44,251 nucleotides of DNA from a gamma proteobacterium symbiont of Ctena orbiculata (lineage in GTDB: Bacteria; Pseudomonadota; Gammaproteobacteria; Chromatiales; Chromatiaceae), in NCBI GenBank assembly GCA_003094555.1, contig NATW01000130.1, positions 1-44,251 on the forward strand. Direction: 5' to 3'. Shown here one piece after another: positions 8,438-21,303 of this stretch (positions within the stretch are counted from its first letter, which is position 1; each line of letters begins with the position of its first letter). A model generated the notes under the pieces. The model made no database searches, was not told where the DNA came from, and saw only the letters and a list, made by a program, of their open reading frames with translations. A program made the translations under genes and the position numbers.

Positions 8438-9016
8438 TCAGCCCGCCTTCTCGAGCACTTCGGAGGTTGCGATCGCCTGCACACCGCTGTGTGGAAAGGG
8501 CCAGCGCCAGTTGCCTGTGCTTACTGGGATCGGCTCCATCACTATGCAGTCGACGGGGCAGGGGGGCAGGCAAAGCTCGCAACCGGTGCATTCATCGGTT
8601 ATGACAACATGCATCTGTTTAGCGGCGCCAATAATAGCGTCCACCGGACAAGCCTGTAGGCAGAGGGTGCAGCCGATACACTCCTGCTCCTTGATCAGGG
8701 CGATGGCTTTCGCTTTCTCTTGGGTAGTATCTGCGTCCAGGGGTACGGGATCCCGCCCCAGAAGGTCAGCCAGCGCAATCATGGTCGCTTCACCGCCTGG
8801 GGGACAGAGATTGATCTCTGATTCACCCCCGGCAATGGCCTCTGCATAGGGTCGGCAGCCGGCAAAGCCGCACTGACCGCACTGGGTCTGGGGTAACAGT
8901 TTTTCGATCTGATCGGTAATCGGGTCCCCTTCCACGTGAAAACGAATACTGGCATAACCCAGCAGCAGGCCGAACAGGGCGGCAAGGGCTGAGATGGTGA
9001 AGATGGCAACTAACAT
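8438..9016 (-). CDS. rnfB: Rnf electron transport complex subunit B (ferredoxin-like)
   Basis: 192 residues: a membrane anchor (about 3-24), then a four-cysteine Fe-S domain with CGQCGFAGC (46-54) and C71, then two [4Fe-4S] ferredoxin motifs, [12 protein letters not shown] (113-124) and [12 protein letters not shown] (143-154). RnfB is the entry or exit point for ferredoxin electrons on the cytoplasmic side. It starts 13 bases after rnfA and ends five bases before rnfC. Length and motif set are normal for the family. Confidence 0.96.
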
Positions 9017-9029
9017 CGATTGGTGTTCC

Positions 9030-9611
9030 TTACACGCTGACCAATCCCGCGAAGCCCATGAATGCCATGGACATCAATCCGGCAGTAATCAATGCGATTG
9101 CGTTGCCTTGCAAGGGTTCAGGGACATCCGCGACGGTAACCCGCTCGCGAACACCGGCAAAAAGTACCAGGACCAGAGAGAAGCCCACCGCGGCGCCAAA
9201 TCCGTAGAGTGCTGATTCGATGAAACCGTGTTGTTCCTGGGTATTGAGCAGGGCCACTCCAAGTACGGCACAATTGGTGGTTATCAGCGGCAGGAAGATA
9301 CCCAGAACCTGATACAGCATGGGACTGGTTTTGTGCATGGCCATCTCAGTGAACTGGACCACTACTGCGATTACCAGGATGAAGGCGATGGTGCGTAGGA
9401 ACTCCAAGCCCAGGGGAATCAGCAGATACTCGTTGACCAGATAGGAGCAGATGGCGGAGAGGGTGAGCACAAAAGTGGTGGCCAGGCCCATACCGGTCGC
9501 CGTTTCCAGCTTGCGCGAAACGCCCATGAATGGACACAATCCCAGAAATTTCACCAGGACAAAGTTATTCACCAGCACGGTGCTGATCAGGATTAGGGCG
9601 TACTCTTGCAT
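9030..9611 (-). CDS. rnfA: Rnf electron transport complex subunit A
   Basis: 193 residues, highly hydrophobic, first gene of the rnfABCDGE operon. [19 protein letters not shown] (14-32) is the family hallmark and holds the cysteine proposed, with that of RnfE, to bind a membrane [2Fe-2S] cluster; [12 protein letters not shown] is the second cysteine-containing segment. It is transcribed divergently from metY across about 300 bases, which must contain the promoter of the rnf operon. Confidence 0.97.
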
Positions 9612-9912
9612 AAAAAAGACCGAAAAATGCGTTATGGCGTAAGGATAAGCGGCTGTTGGAATCGTTACAACTCGTGTGTAATGGGTAATTTCACGCTACT
9701 ATGCGTATCTATGCCATATACCGCATTGATATGCCGCAAATGACGCGGAATGTGGTGAATAAAATTAGTGTTTCAGGCCCGAATTACAGGCCAGCACTCC
9801 CGCGAGGGGCGGAAAATTCAAAAATAAGACACTCTCCGGGGTGCATAATTCCATGCTCAACCGGGGTGATTAAAAGCAAGCCATTACCAAAGATTGAGGA
9901 TGAAGAGTAATC
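9612..9912. promoter_or_regulatory. Divergent rnfA/metY intergenic region
   Basis: About 300 bases without a supported gene; a short open frame on the plus strand here has no ribosome site or protein-like character. It must hold the promoters of rnfA and metY. Close to metY there are two copies of CCGGGGTG (about 9836-9843 and 9871-9878) flanking GCATAATTCCATGC (a 4-bp stem), which could be a leader structure. I could not fit it to a known S-adenosylmethionine riboswitch class, and no clear MetJ box is present. Confidence 0.35.
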
Positions 9913-11190
9913 ATGAAACTAGAATCATTGGCGCTACATGCCGGCTACGCATCGGAACCCACCACCAAGGCAGCTGCGGTTCCAATCTATCAGACCACCT
10001 CATATACCTTTGACGATACGCAACATGGTGCCGACCTGTTCGATCTGAAAGTGGCCGGCAACATCTACACCCGGATCATGAACCCTACCACGGCAGTGCT
10101 GGAGCAACGCCTGACCGAGATGGAGGGCGGGATAGGCTCATTGGCAGTGGCCTCGGGGATGGCGGCCATCACCTATGCCATCCAGTGCATCGCCATGAGC
10201 GGTGACAATATCGTCAGCACCAGCCAACTCTACGGCGGCACCTACAACCTCTTTGCCCACACCTTCCCGCGGCAGGGCATCGAGGTGCGCATGGCCTCCT
10301 TCGATGAATACGAGAAACTGGAGGGCCTGATTGATGACAGAACCCGGGCACTGTTCTGTGAATCCATCGGCAACCCGGCCGGTAATGTGGTGGACCTGGA
10401 GAGGTTGGCCGAGATCGCCCACCGCCATGGGGTGCCCCTGATCGTTGACAATACCGTGGCGACCCCCTATCTCTGCCGTGCCTTCGAACATGGGGCCGAC
10501 ATCATCGTCCACTCCCTGACCAAATATATCGGCGGCCACGGTACCTCTGTGGGCGGCATCATCGTCGACTCCGGCAAGTTCGACTGGGTGGCCAACAAGG
10601 AGCGCTTCCCCATGCTCAACGAGCCCGATCCCTCCTACCACGGGGTGGTCTACACCGAGGCCCTGGGAGAGGCGGCCTATATCGCCCGCTGTCGGGTGGT
10701 GCCCCTGCGCAATACCGGCTCGGCAATCTCGCCTCACAATGCCTTCCTCATCATGCAGGGCCTGGAGACCCTCGGCCTACGCATGGAACGCCACTGCGAG
10801 AACAGCCTTAAGGTGGCGGAGTATCTGAAACAGCAGCCCCAGGTGAAGTGGGTCAACTATGCCGCCCTGCCGGAGAGTCCCCACTATGAACGCTGCCGGA
10901 AGATCACCAAGGGTCAGGCCTCGGGCATCCTCAGCTTCGGCATCGAGGGGGGCATAGAGGCGGGCGCCCGTTTCATCGACGCCCTGCAGATGATCCTGCG
11001 CCTGGTGAATATCGGCGATGCCAAGTCCCTGGCCTGCCACCCGGCCTCCACCACCCACCGTCAGCTCAACGAAGAGGAGTTGGCGACCGCGGGGGTGAGT
11101 GCCGACATGGTACGGCTCTCCATCGGCATCGAGCATGTGGATGACATTATCGCCGATATCAGCCAGGCGCTGGATGCGGCAAAGGGGTGA
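9913..11190 (+). CDS. metY: O-acetylhomoserine aminocarboxypropyltransferase (sulfhydrylase) MetY
   Basis: 425 residues, the usual size of the MetY branch of the Cys/Met-metabolism PLP enzymes (cystathionine synthases are nearer 380-390). It makes homocysteine from O-acetylhomoserine and sulfide. The PLP lysine is K204 in [10 protein letters not shown] (201-210), with [12 protein letters not shown] (178-189) just before it; [18 protein letters not shown] (50-67) and [19 protein letters not shown] (near 365) are family signatures. The gene stands alone, divergent from rnf. A direct-sulfhydrylation enzyme suits an organism handling free sulfide. Ribosome site GAGGATGAAGAG precedes the ATG. Confidence 0.95.
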
Positions 11191-11314
11191 CGGGATAAGA
11201 AGGGGTGTCGGCTAAACAAACAACTAGAACGTTTTCGTTTCTATGCCATGATTATGGGGTTGCATTGTTCACATAAGTATTGGTAATGCTCAGCTAGGTA
11301 ACAGGAGTCTCAGT

Positions 11315-11347
11315 ATGTCTTTGCAAGGATGCGATCATGTTTGTTAA
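11315..11347 (+). CDS. Possible 10-residue leader peptide before the TIR gene
   Basis: A tiny frame MSLQGCDHVC ends 24 bases before the TIR gene. It is preceded by AGGAG (11303-11307) seven bases from its ATG, a far better ribosome site than the one in front of the TIR ATG (weak GAGAAG). It could be a leader peptide coupling translation to the TIR gene, or a chance frame. Nothing else supports it. Confidence 0.25.
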   Translation: MSLQGCDHVC

Positions 11348-11371
11348 GCCACACCCCGAGAAGACCGTCCG

Positions 11372-12745
11372 ATGACTGATGTCTTTATCTCCTACTCGCG
11401 AAGAGACCAGACCTTCGTTGAAGAGCTGAAGCAACGACTGCAGAGCCTTGAGTTGGACGTCTGGGTGGACATTGACGGTCTCTATGCTGGCGAGGAGTTC
11501 TGGCCGGAAGTCACCAGGGCGATAGACGCAGCCGCGGCATTCATCTTCGTCATTTCACCTTCCAGCGCGAATTCCCGCTTTTGCCACAAGGAAGCGGATT
11601 GGGCGGCGACCGGGGGTAAACGCATCGTACCTCTATGCCGTAAAGAGCCTGGTAGTGCGGATCTCCCCGAGCAGGTCGCGCAACGTCAGTGGGTGTTCTT
11701 AAGGGAAGGCGATGAGGCCGATGCTGCGATGGCGACCTTGCTATCGGCGATCAAGGCAGACTGGGCCGAGATACGGCAGCAGGCCCGAATTTACCGACGC
11801 GCGCGTGAATGGCAGGAGAAAAACGAAGACCCATCGTTACTGCTTCGCGGCAGGGACCTTGGCGATGCCGTCGATTGGCGGACACGCAACCAGGGTAAGG
11901 AAACCGGTGCGACCGAGTTGCACGGAAAATATATCGACACCAGTGTAGTCGCCGCAAAGCGGCGGCGTAATCGAATCGCGGGATCCGTTGCCGTCGCAGT
12001 CCTAACGATAGCGATCGTCTCCTGGTACGGCCTAGGTTACTGGATCGCAACCGTCAACAACCGGGGCGTGATCGATATCGAAAAGGGTGAGGCGGCGGCG
12101 ACCATTGCCAGCCTGGAACAGGCGCATAGCATTTGCGAATTTCTGCGACAGCGACCGGCCGCCTGCCGGGACCTGATCCTCGTTCTTGGGCACGGCTACG
12201 AGCAACTGGCGAGGTATGAAGAATCGACAACCCAGTACACACGCGTTATTGAAGCGACGGAAGGCGTTGGCGCCAGTGATGACCGCATTCTCGACCTTCG
12301 CGGCAATGCCTATCAAAGCAGGGCCTTCAGCCGCATCATGCACGCCGAATCGCTGCCCGATCGGGACGCGAGGCAGGCGCTCTACCGGCAGGCCGAAGCC
12401 GATGTCAAGCGGGCGATCGAGAGCTATCGACTGACCAAGGCTGGAATAGCCGGCAAGCCATTCGTTATATCGCAAGCGCGGATCCTCATCGGCTACGAGG
12501 ATTATGATGCTGCCATCGAGCACCTTGAGTTAGCAGCCACTATCGAGGGTCAGGCAGATATCAAACCGGAGATCGATCTTCTATACGCGGTGATCCATCA
12601 CTGCCTGGGCAACATGCCGGCCAGCCTGGAATACTTTCAAAAATTCGCAACGGGGCTCGGTGGCAAGTTAAAAGGCCCGCGGTGGAATCGCGCCGTCGCC
12701 TACTACAAGGGAGTGAAACAACGATGTCAGAACACAATCGGTTAG
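11372..12745 (+). CDS. TIR-domain membrane protein with C-terminal TPR-like region
   Basis: 457 residues in three parts. Residues 1-140 are a TIR domain: VFISYSRRD (4-12), VWVDIDGLYAGEEF (30-43), and SPSSANSRFCHKEADWA (62-78), in which E74 occupies the position of the catalytic glutamate of bacterial TIR NAD+ hydrolases. Residues 155-200 carry the LLLRGRDLGDAVDWR linker often seen after bacterial TIR domains, then KRRRNR and one transmembrane segment (about 203-221). Residues 235-450 are helical and TPR-like (for example HGYEQLARYEESTTQYTRVI). The positive-inside rule puts TIR in the cytoplasm and TPR outside. It overlaps the next gene by 22 bases, so they are probably one unit. Whether it hydrolyses NAD+, signals, or only scaffolds is unknown. 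Confidence 0.85.
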   Translation: MTDVFISYSRRDQTFVEELKQRLQSLELDVWVDIDGLYAGEEFWPEVTRAIDAAAAFIFVISPSSANSRFCHKEADWAATGGKRIVPLCRKEPGSADLPEQVAQRQWVFLREGDEADAAMATLLSAIKADWAEIRQQARIYRRAREWQEKNEDPSLLLRGRDLGDAVDWRTRNQGKETGATELHGKYIDTSVVAAKRRRNRIAGSVAVAVLTIAIVSWYGLGYWIATVNNRGVIDIEKGEAAATIASLEQAHSICEFLRQRPAACRDLILVLGHGYEQLARYEESTTQYTRVIEATEGVGASDDRILDLRGNAYQSRAFSRIMHAESLPDRDARQALYRQAEADVKRAIESYRLTKAGIAGKPFVISQARILIGYEDYDAAIEHLELAATIEGQADIKPEIDLLYAVIHHCLGNMPASLEYFQKFATGLGGKLKGPRWNRAVAYYKGVKQRCQNTIG

Positions 12746-14025
12746 CGTTGCCCGGTTTCCTCGTCATCCTGCTGATCGGCGTTTCCGCGCAAGCGGCAAC
12801 CGTTCATTTCGTGAGTGGGGAGGTCGTCGAACCGGAAGACTTGAACGAGGGCGAGAATCTGCGCACCGGGGACAGGGTGCGCACCGGTGCCGACGGAGTC
12901 GTCATGATCGAGTATCGCTGGCGTTCCGATGTGCAGGGTTTCGATTGCCAGCATCTGGAGATATTCGGTTATGGTGCGAGCCATACAGTCAGAGACATCG
13001 AGACGCCGGGGCAATGTGCAACGCGAGTCGCGGCCGTGCCGGATGAGGGGGTCTTCTCTACTGCTGCAACGCGATACGGTGACGCCTCATACGATGCGTT
13101 TGCCCCGGACAAGGTACAGAATTCCTGGGCACAAACACGCGGGCTCGATCGTTGGATGCAAAACGCAGCGCGGTCCTACACGGGCAAGGTCGAGTCCATC
13201 TCGAACCGGTACATCAAGGTCAAGGGCGCACGATCCACCGCGGCGAGGAGCTTTTCGCTGACCACGGCCGCGCTCAGCAGCCATTCGGATCGAGACGCAC
13301 TCGTCGGCAAGAACGTCCGTGTGACCTATCGACTCACCGCCACCGGGCTTGAGGCCATTCGAATCAAGGCACCGGACGTCGTGGTCGGTACCCAGCCATT
13401 CGTGGTGCTGCAGCCGGATCTGCAGGTTGTGCGGCCGGTCGAGGAGGCGACATCCGCCCCCCATCCCCAGCCGGTAACGAAACCGCAAGCATGGCGCTGC
13501 AAGGTTGATTTACACCAGGGCGATGTCGGGACTATCGAGTTGAGCCGCACAGGCGATAAGATTCGTGGCGTTATGCATATCAAGCGCATCGACGGCAAAC
13601 ATCCAATCAGAGGTACCTGGAAAGGCGATAGAATCGAGTTCCGGCGAAAGTTGTCGGCCTCCTCGGGACAGCCATTCAAGGGAACCGCGACTGAAACGTC
13701 GGACAACACAGTGGCAATGACGGGCCGGTTTGCGTACCAATATGCCGGTGTATGGAGTGCCGACTGTACCCGGGTGGGTTCCAGCACAGGCGCCGCAGTA
13801 GGGGCGGTAGGTCGATACGAGCTTGTCCTTACCGGCTACGAAGGCAGTAAGATAGCGGCCATCAAGGCTGTCAGGGAGGTCTCCGGCCTGGGACTGAGAG
13901 AGGCAAAGGACACGGTCGAACAACCCCCGTCAACCTTGCGCTCCAGTCTGTCGAAGCAGGAGGCTCGTCGCCTTGGCGAAATCCTCGAGGCGGCCGGTGT
14001 CAAAGTGAGACTTCAGGTAAGGTAG
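12724..14025 (+). CDS. Exported FecR-like protein with C-terminal ribosomal L7/L12-like domain
   Basis: 433 residues from ATG 12724; the frame opens earlier inside the TIR gene, but this start gives a clean signal peptide (about 1-25, cut near SAQA/AT). Residues 26-95 resemble a FecR-type beta domain (VHFVSGEV, GENLRTGDRVRTGADGVV). Residues 152-216 (GKVESISNRYIKVKG, GKNVRVTYRLTATGLEAIRI) look like the small beta-barrel of DUF5666-type proteins. Residues 257-350 form a further beta-rich unit. Residues 364-430 match the L7/L12 C-terminal domain, with KIAAIKAVREVSGLGLREAK (376-395). The 22-base overlap with the TIR gene argues for joint function. The role is unknown; an exported sensor or partner of the TPR region is an inference. 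Confidence 0.8.
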   Translation: MSEHNRLALPGFLVILLIGVSAQAATVHFVSGEVVEPEDLNEGENLRTGDRVRTGADGVVMIEYRWRSDVQGFDCQHLEIFGYGASHTVRDIETPGQCATRVAAVPDEGVFSTAATRYGDASYDAFAPDKVQNSWAQTRGLDRWMQNAARSYTGKVESISNRYIKVKGARSTAARSFSLTTAALSSHSDRDALVGKNVRVTYRLTATGLEAIRIKAPDVVVGTQPFVVLQPDLQVVRPVEEATSAPHPQPVTKPQAWRCKVDLHQGDVGTIELSRTGDKIRGVMHIKRIDGKHPIRGTWKGDRIEFRRKLSASSGQPFKGTATETSDNTVAMTGRFAYQYAGVWSADCTRVGSSTGAAVGAVGRYELVLTGYEGSKIAAIKAVREVSGLGLREAKDTVEQPPSTLRSSLSKQEARRLGEILEAAGVKVRLQVR

Positions 14026-14050
14026 TGGGTTGATACCCATTGATTTTTAC
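14026..14050 (+). terminator. Weak terminator-like hairpin after the TIR operon
   Basis: A short stem TGGGT/ACCCA (14026-14030 and 14035-14039) just after the stop is followed by TTGATTTTT. The 5-bp stem is too short to be convincing. Confidence 0.25.
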
Positions 14051-14171
14051 TGGCAATGATTCACTCGAATTTAGTTCCATCAAATACCCAATGCCAATGT
14101 AAATTTTAGGCAAAATTTCAAACTTGATATTTACACTATTGTGCCTACCAGGTTTTTGGTCAGTCGCATAG

Positions 14172-14201
14172 CATGAACTTGAAGTATTTTTTAAGTTCAT
14201 G
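14172..14201 (+). promoter_or_regulatory. Hairpin over the ribosome site of the vWA gene
   Basis: A perfect 9-bp inverted repeat (CATGAACTT at 14172-14180, AAGTTCATG at 14193-14201) with a 12-base loop ends at the first base of the GGAG ribosome site (14201-14204) of the vWA gene. Folded in mRNA, it would crowd the ribosome site and also hide an alternative ATG at 14199. It may control translation. Confidence 0.4.
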
Positions 14202-14210
14202 GAGATCGCT

Positions 14211-15434
14211 ATGCAATCTACAAGTCAATCCTTTCGCCATTATTCTTATTTGCCTTTTATTATCACAGCCCTGATTTCGGGCTCGGCGCTTGCTGCAAAT
14301 CCTGCTCAAGAAAACAATCTTCAAGATATTGTTAAGGAGGAAGCGCTCATTATCCCTGTTCAGGCTAACGTGAGTGCGCGCAGACCAAGAATCCAGTTGG
14401 CCATTCTATTGGATACCAGTAACAGTATGGATGGACTGATCGATCAAACCCGCAATCAACTATGGCAGATTGTCAACGAGTTCGCTGCAGCCAGGAAGGG
14501 CGGTGTCACCCCGATACTCGAGATTGCCCTGTTTGAATACGGCAATGACGCTCTTTCCATAGATAGCGGGTACATTCGTAAACTTACTGGTTTTACAAGG
14601 GAGCTGGATGCCGTCTCAGAAGGGCTCTTTTCGCTGACGACCAACGGTGGCAGTGAATATTGTGGCTATGCAATCAGAACAGCCATCAAAGACTTGCAGT
14701 GGAGCCAGTCCAATGCAGATGTTAAATCCATATTTATCGCGGGTAACGAGTCATTCGCCCAGGGTCCAGTCGACTATCGGAAGGTCATTAAACTTGCTGT
14801 TAAACAAGGTATTGAGATTAGCACAATCCATGCGGGAAGAGATCAAGAGGGTATCAATGGTGGCTGGGAAACGGGTGCCTTGCTGGCAGGTGGTGCATAT
14901 ATGAATATCGATGCCGACCAGAAGATTGTACATATCGAGGCGCCGCAGGATAAAAGGCTCGATGAGCTTAACGCCAAACTTAATTCAACCTACATACCCT
15001 ACGGCACAAAAGGTGCTGAAAAGGTCCAGCGACAACAGGAGCAGGATGCGATGAGTAGCCGGATTTCCGCTGGTTTACTGGCCAAGCGGGCCAAATCCAA
15101 GGCGTCATCTTTCTATCGCAATACCGAATGGGACCTGGTTGATGCCTTGGAAGAGGGCGAAATTGATGAGAAAGATCTGATAAAAATCGAAGAGAATGAT
15201 CTACCGAAGAGTATGAAAGGCATGTCTGACAAGGCGAAAGTGGACTATGTGCGTGAAAAAACAGATGAACGCAATAGGATTAAAGCGGAGATCGCAGAAC
15301 TCAGCCAATCGCGGAATGAGTATGTGTCAAAGTTGAAACGCGAACAGGCGGCCGTAGATCCAAGTCTGGGTGATGCATTGACAGAAGCCGTAAAGCAGCA
15401 GGCTGAAGAGAAGGATTTCGTGTTTGAAAAATAG
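14211..15434 (+). CDS. Exported von Willebrand factor A domain protein
   Basis: 407 residues from ATG 14211, chosen because GGAG lies six bases before it; an in-frame ATG at 14199 would add four residues. A signal peptide (cut near SALA/AN) is followed by a vWA domain of about 190 residues with the metal-site motif LLDTSNSMDG near residue 62 and the stretches LTTNGGSEYCGYAI and SIFIAGNESFAQGPVDYRKV. The last 150 residues are charged, Lys/Glu-rich and probably helical (coiled coil). The vWA type is a conserved exported family of unknown role. It is not tightly linked to the gene before it (185 bases) and is more A+T-rich than the TIR pair. Confidence 0.85.
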   Translation: MQSTSQSFRHYSYLPFIITALISGSALAANPAQENNLQDIVKEEALIIPVQANVSARRPRIQLAILLDTSNSMDGLIDQTRNQLWQIVNEFAAARKGGVTPILEIALFEYGNDALSIDSGYIRKLTGFTRELDAVSEGLFSLTTNGGSEYCGYAIRTAIKDLQWSQSNADVKSIFIAGNESFAQGPVDYRKVIKLAVKQGIEISTIHAGRDQEGINGGWETGALLAGGAYMNIDADQKIVHIEAPQDKRLDELNAKLNSTYIPYGTKGAEKVQRQQEQDAMSSRISAGLLAKRAKSKASSFYRNTEWDLVDALEEGEIDEKDLIKIEENDLPKSMKGMSDKAKVDYVREKTDERNRIKAEIAELSQSRNEYVSKLKREQAAVDPSLGDALTEAVKQQAEEKDFVFEK

Positions 15435-15469
15435 TATATAGCGGAAAATCGGCAGGCGTACGATTGAGT

Positions 15470-16282
15470 TCAATCGTACGGCATGCCCTTGCGCCTAACC
15501 ATTCCAATCAGACCTAGCAATCCTCTACCAAAAAGTAAGATTGCAGGTGGGATAGGTATCACTACAGGTGGTGTTTGTCCAAAACGAATATTATCAATAC
15601 CGATGTTATCATGCATGCCAATTGCCAGATTACCGTGATTAATCTGAACAAAAAGATCAGTCGCGCTTAAGGGCGCTGTAAAATCAAAGCGGATATGCAT
15701 CTCGCCACCGTCATTGGCACCCTGAACAAGTACATTGTCTTGAGAGAACAAGAGATCGGTGCCATCCGACACACTCACCGAGTTGATGGTGTAGTCTGCC
15801 TGGTTCCAACCGGCCAGGTCGAAGTGTTAGAGGTCGACAACGAAACCAGGATCGGCTGTGAGTTGAAAGTTGAGAGAAGCACCCGAGTCGTTGTTGCCAA
15901 AAGCGACATTGTTTAAATCACCGTATTCATTCGTCCATAACGACAAGTTAGTGCCATTGCCTGCAAAGAACTCAATTACAACATTAGGCGTAGAACCTTC
16001 ACCTCCATTGCCGTAGGTAAATTGACCACCAGGAACGTTCATCGGAGACCCGGTTATCCGGTCACCATAGTCATCTTCAAGATTGTTACCACTGCTTGTG
16101 GGCGAAACGACGCCACCTATTCGGATTTGGTCGAATGTCAGGATGCTGGCCTTGCAGGTAACAGTGTAGAGACTCAGTATGAGAAAGATTGTTATCCAGC
16201 TTCCAGTCCTATTTACAATCCCTTCAGAACGAATGCTGGTACTAATCGAGCAATGGTGTGTATATGTTGCTGCTGACTTCAT
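15470..16282 (-). pseudogene. PEP-CTERM (VPLPA-type) exported protein, broken by an in-frame stop
   Basis: One minus-strand frame runs from ATG 16282 (ribosome site GGAGGAG just upstream) to the stop at 15470 and is interrupted only by a TAA at 15827-15829. The first part has a hydrophobic N-terminus (WITIFLILSLYTVT) and a secreted beta-rich region. After the TAA the frame continues HFDLAGWNQADYTINSVSVS without a shift, up to a C-terminal sorting signal, PIPPAILLFGRGLLGLIGM followed by VRRK. That is a short proline motif, a hydrophobic helix and basic residues, as for proteins anchored by exosortase. No exosortase is in the window. A single base change, a sequencing error or readthrough are all possible. 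Confidence 0.75.
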
Positions 16283-16359
16283 GGTTACTCCTCCTATGAG
16301 TGCGCCATGAGATGGCATAACAAGAATTATTAGAATTGTTTGTTCAGTATTGCAGGGAA

Positions 16360-16476
16360 CTAGGGCCTGTTAACACTAATCCAATGCACACTGTTGTGCC
16401 TGAAAAAGCGCCAATCAAGGCGCACCCCAAGGGCACTTCCTTCGGGGCGCATTGGATTAGTGTTAACAGGCCCTAG
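16360..16476. mobile_element. MITE-like element with perfect 28-bp inverted ends
   Basis: Arms at 16360-16387 and 16449-16476 are exact reverse complements over 28 bases; the core is GGCCTGTTAACACTAATCC. The outermost CTAG on each side could be a 4-bp target duplication, since CTAG is its own complement. The 61-base centre contains further short inverted pieces (GCGCC/GGCGC) and no gene. Size, perfect ends and location between accessory genes fit a miniature inverted-repeat element mobilised by an IS5-like transposase elsewhere. It could also fold as a strong hairpin in RNA. Confidence 0.6.
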
Positions 16477-16937
16477 GATAATGCACGACAGACCCAGATC
16501 TGGAATTTTAGCGAGTAAGCAGGTGACGTATCACGATAATATTCCGCGATTGCAATCACCCCTGGTAGTGCGCTTAACCTCCAGGTCTAGCCATTAGCAT
16601 CATGTCTTCGGATACCCCAAATGTATCTTGTGAGATACCAGCTTGACCTCTGTATCGATGGCGTAGACTAGGTGATTACGCGCCAGTTCAACCGTGATAG
16701 GGGCGCTAAGTAGCCCAAGACTATCACTTTGGCTACGCCTTTAACGGCAGGGCTGGTAGCTAATAGTTCACCAAGCTAATATTATGGGACACCCCAGTAA
16801 TGGATGCATGCAATCACAGGAAATACATGCCAAGCCTTGGAGTTTCCTGGTGATACTTAGCAGTCAGCGGTCATTGTCCAAAAAATTGCAAAATCTGGCA
16901 ATATCTCACTATTCTAGCTGTCATGGAGTAATACTAC
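16477..16937. other. Gene-free stretch before the rhomboid gene
   Basis: No supported gene in about 460 bases. On the minus strand 16600-16740 is open and reads protein-like (for example ITVELARNHLVYAIDTEVKL), which may be the tail of a decayed gene, but it has no start and I do not recognise it. A promoter candidate for the rhomboid gene lies at the right end. Confidence 0.4.
16886..16915 (+). promoter_or_regulatory. Candidate sigma-70 promoter of the rhomboid gene
   Basis: TTGCAA (16886-16891), an 18-base spacer, and TATTCT (16910-16915), placing transcription start near 16922, about 16 bases before the GTG. Seen by eye only, in A+T-rich DNA where chance matches are common. Confidence 0.35.
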
Positions 16938-17864
16938 GTGTTCTTTTTGCCATATAAACTAGATTCAGAACTATATAAAATCCCATACGTTACACTGTTC
17001 ATATGTATTATTTGTATTTTTATCTATTGGAATCAATATCAAATAGATGGTCACTACCAAGAGTCTATTCAGACGTATTGCAATACAAATATCGAGCGAG
17101 GTGACCTGATTCTAATTAGGAAGATTACTCATCAGGAAAACGGAAATCAGTGTGAGCAACTCTTCGAGTCCATTCGTAAGGCGCATGTGCCTAAAGATAA
17201 GTTAGAAGCGTTGGCTTTAGAGTCAGATCCTATGGGTAGCTTTGCCACTGCTGAGGATGATTATAATTATAGGTTGAATCGGTTGCAGGAACTGTATAGA
17301 AACTTTGCTATGAGCGTTCCTGAGGATTTAACTGGTGCGTTAGCCTATGACCCTAAAAAGATAAATCTTGTGAATATGATAACCTCGACATTCTCCCACG
17401 CAGATGTCCTGCATTTACTAGGTAATTTGCTGTTTTTTTATATATTTTCCGCCTCGGTTGAGTTGATATTTGGTGGTTTTTTATACTTAGGGTTTATTCT
17501 TCTGGCAAGCCTGGGTACCAGTCTTGCTTACAGCTATGCCGTAATAGGTGTAGAGCAAGCTTTGCCAACTATCGGGCTATCCGGTGTGGTTATGGCTTCT
17601 GTGGCAGCGCTTGCTGTAATGCTGCCAACTGCGAGGATTCGTTGTTTTTTTTGGTTCATTGTTTTTTTTCGAATTATAAGAATTCCTGCCCTACTGCTTG
17701 CTGTCTGGTACATTGGGTGGGATTTCTACGAAATGAATCTCTACGGAGACGAATCCAATATAAACTATGTTGCTCATATTAGCGGTGCTGTTATAGGGGC
17801 AATTTTCGGCATTATCTACTATCTGTTTAGACGAGATAATATTCGCGCAACTGTTCAGCCTTAA
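16938..17864 (+). CDS. Rhomboid-family intramembrane serine protease
   Basis: 308 residues, starting at a GTG nine bases after GGAG (16925-16928). The first membrane helix (about 18-33) is followed by an unusually long soluble insert of about 110 residues, then the rhomboid core: STFSHADVLHLLGNLLFFYI (near 153-172), the nucleophile motif IGLSG and the paired histidine in NYVAHISGAVIGAIFG. Rhomboids cleave membrane-anchored substrates within the bilayer. DNA is clearly more A+T-rich than the flanking core genes and codon choice differs, which suggests acquisition. It converges with the FemAB-like gene. Catalytic residues are present, so the enzyme is probably active; the substrate is unknown. 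Confidence 0.88.
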   Translation: MFFLPYKLDSELYKIPYVTLFICIICIFIYWNQYQIDGHYQESIQTYCNTNIERGDLILIRKITHQENGNQCEQLFESIRKAHVPKDKLEALALESDPMGSFATAEDDYNYRLNRLQELYRNFAMSVPEDLTGALAYDPKKINLVNMITSTFSHADVLHLLGNLLFFYIFSASVELIFGGFLYLGFILLASLGTSLAYSYAVIGVEQALPTIGLSGVVMASVAALAVMLPTARIRCFFWFIVFFRIIRIPALLLAVWYIGWDFYEMNLYGDESNINYVAHISGAVIGAIFGIIYYLFRRDNIRATVQP

Positions 17865-18146
17865 TTAAGATAACAGCTACCCATATACACACTGAGGTAT
17901 CTTGTTCTCTAACGAAAAGCAATGAGTGTCACACAGCTAACTATTCATGCTGATTCTATAGATCTTAAGGCATGTAAAATCTTAAAGATTCCACTCAGTG
18001 TGGATGCGTAGTTTTTCTCAACAGCGTGCTTCATCATATTATCAAAATATGGTGGCTGCGGTAGTGGCGGTTCTTTCTGTTATGTTGAGATTCTAATGAC
18101 AGTGAGAAAGCATGACGATGATATTAACTATTACACATCGTGTGAT

Positions 18147-19217
18147 CTACTTATGCATTTTGCCTTTAATCAGATGCGTAACCAGTTTGGTGAAATAGAT
18201 GAACCCCTTAACGCTGATCGGGATAAACAGATAGGTGCCGAGTTGATGTTGTTTGATTGGTACCATAGACTGCCAACTCTCCTCACAGCCGAGGAATTCA
18301 TATCGTTCCAGCTTTTGTTCAGCAGCATAGATGATGGTTTCCATGGCCATTTGAAAACCGGGTGACATTTTATGGAAACGCTCGTCATGCCCGATTTTTA
18401 GTATCCAGAGTGCTGAGGCATGCTGGATGGTCAAATACATGGCGGCATCATCTTCACCCACCGTCAAGAAGAAGATTCTTACCTTGGATATGGCTGACAT
18501 GTCACGAGAGTAGTCCTGGAAAAATCGCTGCATTGATTTATTCGCCAACAGTGAACTGTTTTCCTTGCCTTTCCAGCTTGCGTGTTCCACTTTCATGAGT
18601 CTTTGATAGTGATGATCCAGATTGGACGTATCCGGATTGATCACTTCAATGTTTACTGTTCCGATTTTCTCCAGTTGCTTTCGAGTCCGCTTTAAATCGT
18701 TGCGACGGCTGGAAGATAACAGGGCCGATAATTCAGCACGAACATCTGTTTCTTCGGTCAGATCAGGTTCAAAATAATTTGCTGGGGTGGAGTGGCGATA
18801 AATGAACAGGCCTTTGTATCCTGGTACTTTTTCAAAGGCCTGTCTTACCGCTGAATCCTGAGGCATGCGTATAAGACTCACTGGCATTCCCAACTGAATG
18901 ACTTTGACGACAACCTGTCTTGCTGCATCTGCATTCTCATACAGCCAGTTTGTGGGTTCATAGAGATTCTTGGCGCCAATTATCTCAAGGGTCGGTACGG
19001 CCTTATGACGACTTATCACTAACGGTGCAATCGCAATGACTGCATTGTCTTCTTCGCAGATCGCAACAGCTATCTCTTCTTCAGGATGAAGTTCCATTGC
19101 AGCATGGTAGAACCATTCAAACCTCAGCAATGGACTCTTCATTTTATCCGCAAGTTGATTCCAGGTGTCCCGATAGGTAGGCAACTCCTGTTTGTTTGTT
19201 ATCAACTTAACTGGCAT
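18147..19217 (-). CDS. FemAB/CelD-like GNAT-fold acyltransferase
   Basis: 356 residues with the shape of the CelD/BcsL and FemAB-like acetyltransferases (Acetyltransf_6 type): an N-terminal domain with WNQLADKMKSPLLRFEWFY (19-37), a central LSSSRRNDLKRTRKQLEK segment, and a C-terminal GNAT fold in which LTIQHASALWILKIGHDERF and SPGFQMAMETIIYAAEQ resemble the acceptor and acyl-donor regions. Such enzymes transfer acyl or aminoacyl groups in polysaccharide, peptidoglycan or lipid modification. It starts 31 bases after the metG stop on the same strand, so it may be co-transcribed with metG. The substrate cannot be told from sequence. Confidence 0.8.
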   Translation of the reverse strand: MPVKLITNKQELPTYRDTWNQLADKMKSPLLRFEWFYHAAMELHPEEEIAVAICEEDNAVIAIAPLVISRHKAVPTLEIIGAKNLYEPTNWLYENADAARQVVVKVIQLGMPVSLIRMPQDSAVRQAFEKVPGYKGLFIYRHSTPANYFEPDLTEETDVRAELSALLSSSRRNDLKRTRKQLEKIGTVNIEVINPDTSNLDHHYQRLMKVEHASWKGKENSSLLANKSMQRFFQDYSRDMSAISKVRIFFLTVGEDDAAMYLTIQHASALWILKIGHDERFHKMSPGFQMAMETIIYAAEQKLERYEFLGCEESWQSMVPIKQHQLGTYLFIPISVKGFIYFTKLVTHLIKGKMHK

Positions 19218-19248
19218 TGTACTATCAGTTCAGGACTTATCTCGATCC

Positions 19249-21303
19249 CTACTTCACTCGCATTCCGGGCTGTGCCCCCTCGTCGGGATTGAGGATGAAC
19301 AGCTCTTTACCACCGGGTCCGGCCGCCAGCACCATGCCTTCGGATATGCCAAAGCGCATTTTGCGCGGCGCCAGGTTGGCCACCATCACGGTGAGCTTGC
19401 CTTCCAGGTCTTCAGGCGCATAGGCCGACTTGATGCCGGCAAAGACGTTGCGGGTCTCGCCACCCAAATCCAGGGTCAGTTGCAGCAGCTTATCCGCCCC
19501 TTCCACATGCTCCGCCTTGGCGATACGGGCTATGCGCAGGTCGAGCTTGGCGAAGTCGTCGAACTGGATGGTGTCGGTGATGGGGTCCCTGGCCAAGGGT
19601 GAATCGGCCGCCGGTTTGGCCGGCTTGTCCGGTACCTGTGCCGCCAGATCCCCTTTGGAATGCTCCAGCATGGCCTCGATATGCTTGGGGTCTACCCGGG
19701 TCATCAAAGGTTTGAATTTACCGATGCTATGGCCGGTCAGCGGTGTGTCCAGTTGATCCCAGGTCAGGGGTTCGATCTGCAGAAATGCCTCCGCCATCTC
19801 GGCGGTGCCAGGCAGGATTGGGCGCAGGTAGCCAATTAGCAAGCGGAAAAGGTTGAGACCGTCGCTACAGATCGCTTGTAGTTCGGCCTCTTTGCCATCC
19901 TCTTTCGCTACCACCCAGGGCTTTTGCTCATCGATGTACTGATTGGCGCGATCGGCCAGGGCCATGATCTCACGTACGGCGCGACTGAACTCCCGTTTTT
20001 CATAATGCCCTGCGATGGTCTCACCGGCGGTATTAAATTCATCGAACAGGGCCTGCTCGGTCACTTGGTCAGTCAGCTTGCCCTCAAATCTTTTAGTAAT
20101 GAATCCTGCGCACCGACTGGCGATGTTGACCACCTTGCCCACCAGGTCGCTGTTGACCCGCTGGGCGAAATCCTCCAGGTTGAGGTCGATGTCATCCACA
20201 CCTGATCCCAGCTTGGCGGCAAAGTAGTAGCGCAGGTATTCCGGATTGAGATGATCCAGGTAGGTGCGCGCCTTGATGAAGGTACCCCGGGACTTGGACA
20301 TCTTGGCCCCGTCCACGGTGAGAAAGCCGTGGGCATAGACTGCGCTGGGGGTGCGGAAGCCCGCACCGTGCAGCATCGCCGGCCAGAACAGGGTGTGGAA
20401 GTAGATGATGTCCTTGCCGATGAAGTGGTAGAGCTCGGTCTCGCTCCCCTTTGCCCAATACTCGTCGAAGTCGAGTCCCTCGGTCCTGTCGCAGAGGTTG
20501 CGGAAACTGGCCATATAACCGATGGGGGCGTCGAGCCAGACGTAGAAGTACTTGCCCGGATGGTCGGGGATCTCGAACCCGAAGTAGGGAGCGTCCCGGG
20601 AGATGTCCCACTCCTGCAGGCCTGCCTCGAACCACTCGTCCAGTTTGTTGGAGACCTCGTTCTGCACATGGCCGCCACCTGTCCACTCCTTGAGCATGGT
20701 TTCGAAGTCGGCCAGCTTGAAGAAGTAGTGGTCTGACTCACGCTGTTCGGGTACCGCACCGGAGATGGCGGAGACCGGGTTGATCAGCTCTGCCGGTGAG
20801 TAGCTGGAGCCACATACCTCGCAGTTATCGCCATACTGATCGTCGGCACCGCACTTGGGATTTGGACAGGTGCCCTTGATAAAGCGGTCGGGCAGGAACA
20901 TGTGTTCTACCGGATCGTAAGCCTGGGTGATGGTGCGCTTGGCGATATGGCCGGCGTCACGATTGCGTTCGTAGATGGTGTTGGCGCAGACCTGGTTCTC
21001 CGGTGAGTGGGTGGAGTGGTAGTTGTCAAAGCCGACGCGGAAATCGGCGAAGTCGGCCTGGTGCTCTTGCGCCACCCGGGCAATCAGGGTTTCAGGTTCG
21101 ATCCCCTCCTGGCGGGCGCGCAGCATGATCGGCGTGCCGTGGGCGTCGTCGGCGCAGACATAGAGACATTGGTGCCCGCGCATCTTCTGGAAGCGTGACC
21201 AGATATCGGTCTGGATATACTCCACCAGGTGGCCGATATGGATCGGTCCATTGGCGTAGGGCAGGGCGCTGGTGATCAGGATCTTGCGGGGTGACTGGCT
21301 CAT
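19249..21303 (-). CDS. metG: Methionyl-tRNA synthetase
   Basis: 684 residues from MSQSPRKIL, the usual start just before the catalytic fold; the frame could begin 18 residues earlier but those are not family-like. The class I signatures are HIGH in [13 protein letters not shown] (near the N-terminus) and KMSKS in [13 protein letters not shown] zinc site is formed by [20 protein letters not shown]. The C-terminal 110 residues (from [16 protein letters not shown]) form the OB-fold tRNA-binding and dimer domain of the long MetG type. It charges initiator and elongator tRNA-Met. The FemAB-like gene follows after 31 bases. Confidence 0.98.

Follow-up and report, generated by a model that had tools for sequence, protein, structure and literature searches.

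The bacterial TIR defence proteins that we know of (Thoeris, TIR-SAVED and TIR-pAgo) act on cytoplasmic signals. Other architectures have also been reported: excerpts of the literature describe large actinobacterial proteins with an N-terminal TIR and a C-terminal TPR region (group 6; PMC7075850), TIR-NBD-TPR/WD40 architectures alongside TIR proteins that contain short transmembrane regions (PMC9153377), and periplasm-facing sensors proposed in other conflict systems (PMC10907252). The available sections of these three papers do not describe a helix between TIR and TPR, and no description of TIR-linker-helix receptors with outside sensors was recognized in a search of open-licence papers. Here we analyze a pair of overlapping genes, gene 1 and gene 2, on contig NATW01000130.1 of a gammaproteobacterial symbiont of Ctena orbiculata (assembly GCA_003094555.1); the whole 44,251-nucleotide stretch is referred to as the window. 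Our preferred reading, to which we assign a probability of about 0.4, is that the pair encodes a single-pass TIR receptor and an exported partner, working as an accessory envelope-sensing defence or stress system. With its TPR-like end and overlapping exported L7/L12-type partner, the pair appears to be a variation on a widespread membrane TIR family that is apparently undescribed in the open-licence literature.

The closest published parallel comes from Burkholderia, where, according to an excerpt of PMC5192318, the gene of an exported LysM-FecR protein overlaps or lies close to that of a membrane sensor, a CHASE2 histidine kinase. That operon differs in having a histidine kinase instead of a TIR protein, and FecR is unconfirmed in gene 2. 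The EACC1 two-gene conflict system (PMC7159879) is alike in its adjacent genes, one product having a single membrane helix and reaching both sides. In the available sections of that paper, the helix protein is small and constant, the effector is the other gene, and no TIR-linker-helix-TPR protein is described. A looser likeness is to animal Toll-like receptors, which span the membrane once and have their TIR in the cytoplasm and a repeat domain outside it. They carry a C-terminal TIR and an extracellular LRR region, whereas here the TIR is N-terminal and the other end TPR-like, and the sensor parts are non-homologous.

The preliminary description of this DNA had placed two open reading frames (ORFs) with a 22-base overlap at this locus, and both were recovered at the same coordinates (Table 1). 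The ATG of gene 2 at 12724 lies inside gene 1, and the sequence AAGGGAG is found 10 bases upstream of it. Both frames show the codon-position GC pattern of genes, with GC contents of 0.58 and 0.60 and third-position values (GC3) of 0.66 and 0.68 for gene 1 and gene 2, respectively; the next gene has 0.47 and 0.49. Gene 1 and gene 2 are real overlapping genes. Terminator-like hairpins around the pair were no commoner than in shuffled sequences.

The solved sequences nearest to the TIR domain of gene 1 are SARM1 TIR domains, and in the alignment E74 falls on the glutamate of their 'HKE' motif, the catalytic residue of SARM1. A TIR domain bearing an NAD+ hydrolase-type glutamate, as proposed from the letters, was recovered by both profile and alignment. 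E74, W31 and K83 were invariant in all 50 members of the family described below, which suggests a kept active site and argues against the quite unlikely alternative that the TIR lacks NAD+ hydrolase activity and serves as a scaffold or a signalling adaptor, through which periplasmic sensing is connected with other TIR or signalling proteins of the cytoplasm. Pointing toward such a scaffold, V or I occupies the position four residues before E74 in 39 family members out of 50, and F occupies it in the gene 1 protein (P0001); the corresponding SARM1 residue is a Trp with a role there. Overall, the balance tips slightly toward an enzymatically active TIR.

Matches to gene 1 were found at E ≤ 1e-5 in 12 of 56 related genomes and at E ≤ 1e-9 in 16 of 369 sampled genomes of the class, the own genome being included in both counts. 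A scan with the linker alignment, using one genome per species, yielded 70 pattern matches and from these 49 relatives, which together with P0001 make up a family of 50. The relatives come from Chloroflexi, Cyanobacteria, Actinomycetota and Proteobacteria, and ten of them run off a contig end, so that their C-termini are incomplete. In viral contigs, 13 pattern matches to gene 1 gave no relative. TIR_2 was present in 50/50 members and WD40 in 36/50. P0001 carries the marks of the family, namely the N-terminal TIR_2, the linker motif R-x3-R-x2-E-W ... LLRG ... YI-x2-S and an Arg/Lys-flanked helix predicted to run from the inside outward; the R..R..EW part of the motif is invariant because it served as the search pattern. 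No Pfam or NCBIfam family matched the linker of gene 1 (about residues 125-196).

The nearest members are TIR-linker-helix-WD40 proteins of Candidatus Thiodiazotropha, Chloroflexi, Cyanobacteria and others, which share with gene 1 the TIR, the motif of the linker and a helix flanked by Arg/Lys, and whose best matches are 35-42% identical to it over about residues 1-220. They differ in ending in WD40 instead of a TPR-like domain and in having no overlapping exported gene in the 36 relatives that are readable downstream. Cyanobacterial TIR-CHASE2 receptors (loci L123 of Kovacikia, L148 of Lyngbya and L172 of Leptolyngbyaceae) likewise have the TIR and linker on the predicted inner side, and their helix leads into an extracytoplasmic sensor. 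The gene of L123 adjoins a DUF928 gene, and 11 bases after the gene of L148 comes one whose product has a signal-like N-terminus. These receptors have CHASE2 in place of TPR, and L123 and L172 contain three TIR copies. TIR-linker-helix proteins form a widespread, modular and mostly WD40-ended family. The author of the preliminary description had not recognized the arrangement; its TIR-linker-helix-sensor plan proved widespread, and what sets this pair apart is that gene 1 ends in a TPR-like domain and overlaps the gene of an exported partner. Two plasmid-borne relatives are annotated merely as 'TIR domain-containing protein'. On an Agrobacterium plasmid, the gene of a TIR-helix-WD40-M23 peptidase protein (L122:5956-8889) adjoins insertion sequence (IS) elements.

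The single membrane helix proposed for gene 1 was also found, as a hydrophobic stretch with KRRRNR directly before it. Counted over 15 residues on each side, Lys and Arg number five before the helix of P0001 and one after it; they are more numerous before the first helix than after it in 45 of the 50 members, equal in five and fewer in none. By the same simple test, a second helix was absent in 42 members. The domains that follow the helix point the same way. WD40 and an M23 peptidase follow it in the plasmid-borne L122, and M23 peptidases act on peptidoglycan. CHASE2, which follows it in L148, L172 and the plasmid-borne L123, is described as an extracellular sensor domain in excerpts of PMC8195603 and PMC5192318. 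Because of the charge asymmetry and of the CHASE2 and M23 domains of relatives, a TIR inside and a sensor outside is the best reading, as had been proposed, and a cytoplasmic TIR with a periplasmic TPR part is the very probable predicted topology of gene 1.

The claim of a TPR-like domain stood in part. When residues 221-457 were modelled from the single sequence, the result was helical from position 248 onward, with a mean predicted local distance difference test (pLDDT) score of 65.6 and values mostly below 50 up to residue 286. TPR proteins topped the Foldseek list obtained with this model, the best E value being 3.9e-3 and none reaching 0.001 or less; Pfam TPR matches stayed below their cut-offs. 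Some relatives' matches to gene 1 extend beyond the helix (L132 to residue 305 and L141 to residue 269). Residues 221-457 compared by phmmer with the proteins of the 49 relatives gave a best E value of only 0.072, and the TPR part compared by tblastn with 200 loci outside the own genome gave 0.11. Among 210 genomes of the order, seven other genomes were matched at E values of 0.003-0.0074; of the matches inspected, which left out L059 and L060, four were other proteins with TPR-like repeats (L056, L058, L061 and L062) and L057 showed no clear gene. Across these order genomes, relatives and loci, no relative of the TPR part was found past general TPR similarity.

Gene 2 begins with a signal-like stretch, read by eye, in agreement with the signal peptide proposed earlier, and the L7/L12-like part named in the same description was recovered with 65.4 bits against a PF00542 cut-off of 25.9. 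This C-terminal domain resembles bL12 and shares 48.5% identity over 68 aa with the product of rplL in the same genome. However, gene 2 differs from bL12 in lacking the bL12 N-terminal domain and in its signal peptide, and it is not a full bL12: TIGR00855 scored 61.7 bits against a cut-off of 84.4 and matched at profile positions 49-124 only. A second PF00542 match (E ≤ 1e-5) occurred in four of 229 class genomes, this one included, and among these four extra proteins a signal peptide was seen by eye in gene 2 only. One of the others, L194 in genome G407, is a 292-aa frame with an L7/L12 C-terminal domain, another non-ribosomal use of the domain; by eye, its N-terminus looks like a zinc ribbon and a signal peptide is absent. 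The remaining two matches are partial and fall in small proteins whose C-terminal end is hydrophobic.

The N-terminus of gene 2 is beta-rich in a low-confidence model, which at a pLDDT of 45.4 was not used for a fold search. The 'FecR-like' label given to it earlier found no profile support: residues 25-144 matched no Pfam family at E values up to 10, and the motif GxxLxxGDxVxTG was seen by eye only. The beta domain that follows has a single relative (E 1.5e-11), in a protein of genome G375 with a signal-like N-terminus and 411 aa from the first Met; a cysteine pair near the domain ends (Cys259 and Cys348 in gene 2) is common to both. No gene 1-like TIR was found within the 13.5 kb read around this relative.

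Table 1 Positions of the features of the gene pair and of the surrounding segment in the window.
Feature	Position	Strand	Basis
Gene 1: TIR-linker-membrane helix-TPR-like protein, 457 aa	11372..12745	+	ORF, domain profiles, model, Foldseek
TIR_2 domain, residues 4-124	11381..11743	+	Pfam PF13676, E 2.6e-24
E74 codon, catalytic-type glutamate	11591..11593	+	Invariant 50/50; aligns with SARM1 HKE glutamate
Unnamed conserved linker (R-x3-R-x2-E-W ... LLRG-x-DL ... YI-x2-S), residues about 125-196	11744..11959	+	Alignments
Membrane helix, residues 202-220, after KRRRNR, predicted N-in/C-out	11975..12031	+	Hydropathy, charge
TPR-like helical C-terminal domain, about residues 228-457, predicted periplasmic	12053..12742	+	Weak Pfam TPR, model, Foldseek
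AAGGGAG, Shine-Dalgarno-like site for gene 2, within gene 1	12707..12713	+	Sequence read directly
Overlap of gene 1 and gene 2, 22 bases	12724..12745	+	Sequence
Gene 2: predicted exported multidomain protein with L7/L12 C-terminal domain, 433 aa	12724..14025	+	ORF, Pfam
Signal peptide, about residues 1-24, ending AQA-AT	12724..12795	+	Sequence by eye
OB/DUF5666-like beta region, residues 152-216	13177..13371	+	DUF5666 E 0.11, below cut-off; strands in low-confidence model
Beta domain, residues 252-361, Cys259 and Cys348 near ends	13477..13806	+	Relative in G375 exported protein
L7/L12 C-terminal domain, residues 366-431	13819..14016	+	PF00542, E 5.9e-18
Terminator-like stem-loop at gene 2 end	14023..14042	+	Weak: 2 in region vs 2.7 expected in shuffles
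Accessory segment, absent from same-species G163 (305 bp other DNA there)	11191..18142	.	Genome comparison

Searches for a second copy of the pair centred on gene 2. Residues 1-357 retrieved, from 369 class genomes, the own genome and G375 only; in a broad scan of genome contigs they gave 63 pattern matches and no relative, the scan depending on exact short patterns and thus reaching close relatives only. Residues 26-357 gave eight non-self matches in seven of 210 order genomes (E 6.6e-4 to 0.0082). All eight were inspected (L064-L071; for L069 a 13-aa stretch only) and, being short or in broken frames, for instance 43 aa within a large unrelated protein, were judged to be chance. The same 43-aa stretch was the best tblastn match (E 4.2e-4) of residues 1-251 among the 200 non-own loci, and it was again set aside. 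No clear relative of residues 1-251 was found in the order, class and broader contig scans or in the 200 loci. In plasmids (the best 20 of 57 records) and phages (18/18), matches to the full gene 2 covered the L7/L12 part only.

Several results weigh against a membrane receptor with an exported partner. The pair was seen in one genome only, and an overlapping exported gene was found in none of the 36 relatives, out of 49, with at least 400 bp of readable downstream sequence; by a rough hydrophobicity test, a possibly exported gene lies within 400 bp downstream in seven of the 36. TPR_12 (E 1.9e-4) and TPR_7 (E 4.4e-4) reached 22.0 and 20.6 bits against Pfam cut-offs of 30.1 and 27.9, respectively. 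Searches with PADLOC found no full-length profile match to known TIR defence systems (Thoeris ThsB, TIR-SAVED, the TIR-pAgo partner) and, among the genes scanned, none of their partners (ThsA, SAVED or pAgo). All 13 matches to gene 1 lay within residues 1-150, the TIR part, and gene 2 had no match, nor had the scanned neighbours, gene 3 and the rhomboid gene. The helix of P0001 is of modest hydropathy (1.89 versus 2-3 in most relatives), and a TIR-WD40 protein of G019, a genome of Candidatus Thiodiazotropha, has no membrane helix; its gene occupies the same chromosomal spot. These last two observations would fit a hydrophobic stretch that is merely a buried or peripheral helix, leaving gene 1 wholly cytoplasmic and unable to meet the exported gene 2 product, which we regard as improbable in view of the charge asymmetry in 45/50 members and the CHASE2 and M23 domains that follow the helix in relatives.

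Since the pair was found in a single genome, the case for a partnership is made by the overlap and the shared composition. It is also conceivable, if somewhat unlikely, that gene 1 encodes a membrane TIR receptor and gene 2 an unrelated exported protein, the two being co-transcribed by chance and their products never meeting. The lack of a second pair and of overlapping exported neighbours in the readable relatives would be expected then, and so would the mixed make-up of the surrounding island, as the genomes G006, G019 and G214, which hold relatives of a VWA gene downstream of the pair, are absent from the matches listed for gene 2 and for the TPR part. Chance proximity accounts less readily for a 22-base overlap with an internal ribosome-binding-like site and matched GC and GC3, or for a TPR part and a gene 2 product that are both predicted to be periplasmic. 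On balance, whether the gene 2 product is a functional partner of the gene 1 product stands at even odds.

The pair lies in a variable part of the chromosome. In G163, a complete genome of that species, the match to the window (98%) breaks off at 11190 and resumes at 18143 (96%), and the 305 bases between have no match over their length to positions 9000-20000 of the window. The 6,952-base segment, which holds gene 1, gene 2, the VWA gene, a PEP-CTERM-type gene, a rhomboid gene and a palindromic repeat, is accessory because it is absent from G163. Across Candidatus Thiodiazotropha, the interval between a pyridoxal phosphate (PLP) enzyme gene and metG varies from 96 bases to about 10 kb and holds different genes in the 12 genomes in which metG was reached. 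These are among 20 genomes in which the stretch beyond the PLP-enzyme gene was covered (loci L102-L121), the genus having 21 besides the own one and G015 being left out. In G019, the TIR-WD40 gene at this spot is followed after 15 bases by a same-strand Sel1-repeat gene without a signal peptide. Beside that TIR-WD40 gene lies an extra 3'-end fragment of the PLP-enzyme gene (L103:7243-7431), perhaps a trace of DNA entry into the spot. The accessory nature of the cassette and the variability of its chromosomal spot fit a defence or stress role, and an output in defence or envelope stress falls only a little short of even odds.

The VWA gene was considered as a third component and rejected, given its different GC content, a 173-base gap and relatives of 52% identity in G006, G019 and G214; it is not tied to the pair because those in G006 and G019 sit on contigs other than that of the PLP-metG spot and another is in G214. 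Some match to it was found in 63 of 204 genomes. Further along, a gene for a PEP-CTERM-type exported protein (15470-16318, minus strand; its C-terminus resembles that of PEP-CTERM proteins) is split by an in-frame stop near 15827. Beside it, a rhomboid protease gene (16938-17864; Pfam E 7.3e-20) weakly resembles rhombosortase (E 1.1e-6, below cut-off). The palindromic repeat at 16355-16484 is about 60-130 bp long, looks like a repetitive extragenic palindrome (REP) or miniature inverted-repeat transposable element (MITE), and has many copies, mostly more than 80% identical, in G163, G004 and G010 and fewer in G002. Rfam gave nothing at gathering score in 11000-18500.

If the receptor-and-partner reading holds, the gene 1 product would be a single-pass inner-membrane receptor, with the TIR and linker in the cytoplasm, one helix and a TPR-like domain predicted to lie in the periplasm. 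Gene 2, presumably translated by coupling from the same transcript, would supply an exported partner, which may bind to the periplasmic TPR superhelix. If the envelope is disturbed, for example when a phage attaches or injects, TPR occupancy could change and let the TIR domains cluster, and the clustered domains might cleave NAD+ or produce a nucleotide signal that stops growth or warns the cell. An unlikely but farther-reaching version is that the pair represents a bacterial counterpart of Toll-receptor signalling, in which the periplasmic TPR domain of a TIR enzyme is loaded by a dedicated exported co-receptor with a repurposed L7/L12 domain and senses attack on the envelope, by phage or otherwise, before the cytoplasm is reached. 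It would then be one of a large, unnamed family of TIR receptors whose outside sensors can be exchanged (WD40, CHASE2, WD40-M23 and TPR). Should a TIR domain indeed be tied across the membrane to an exchangeable outside domain, bacteria would use TIR for transmembrane receptor signalling, as animals do, and this gene pair would be a compact two-gene test case for it.

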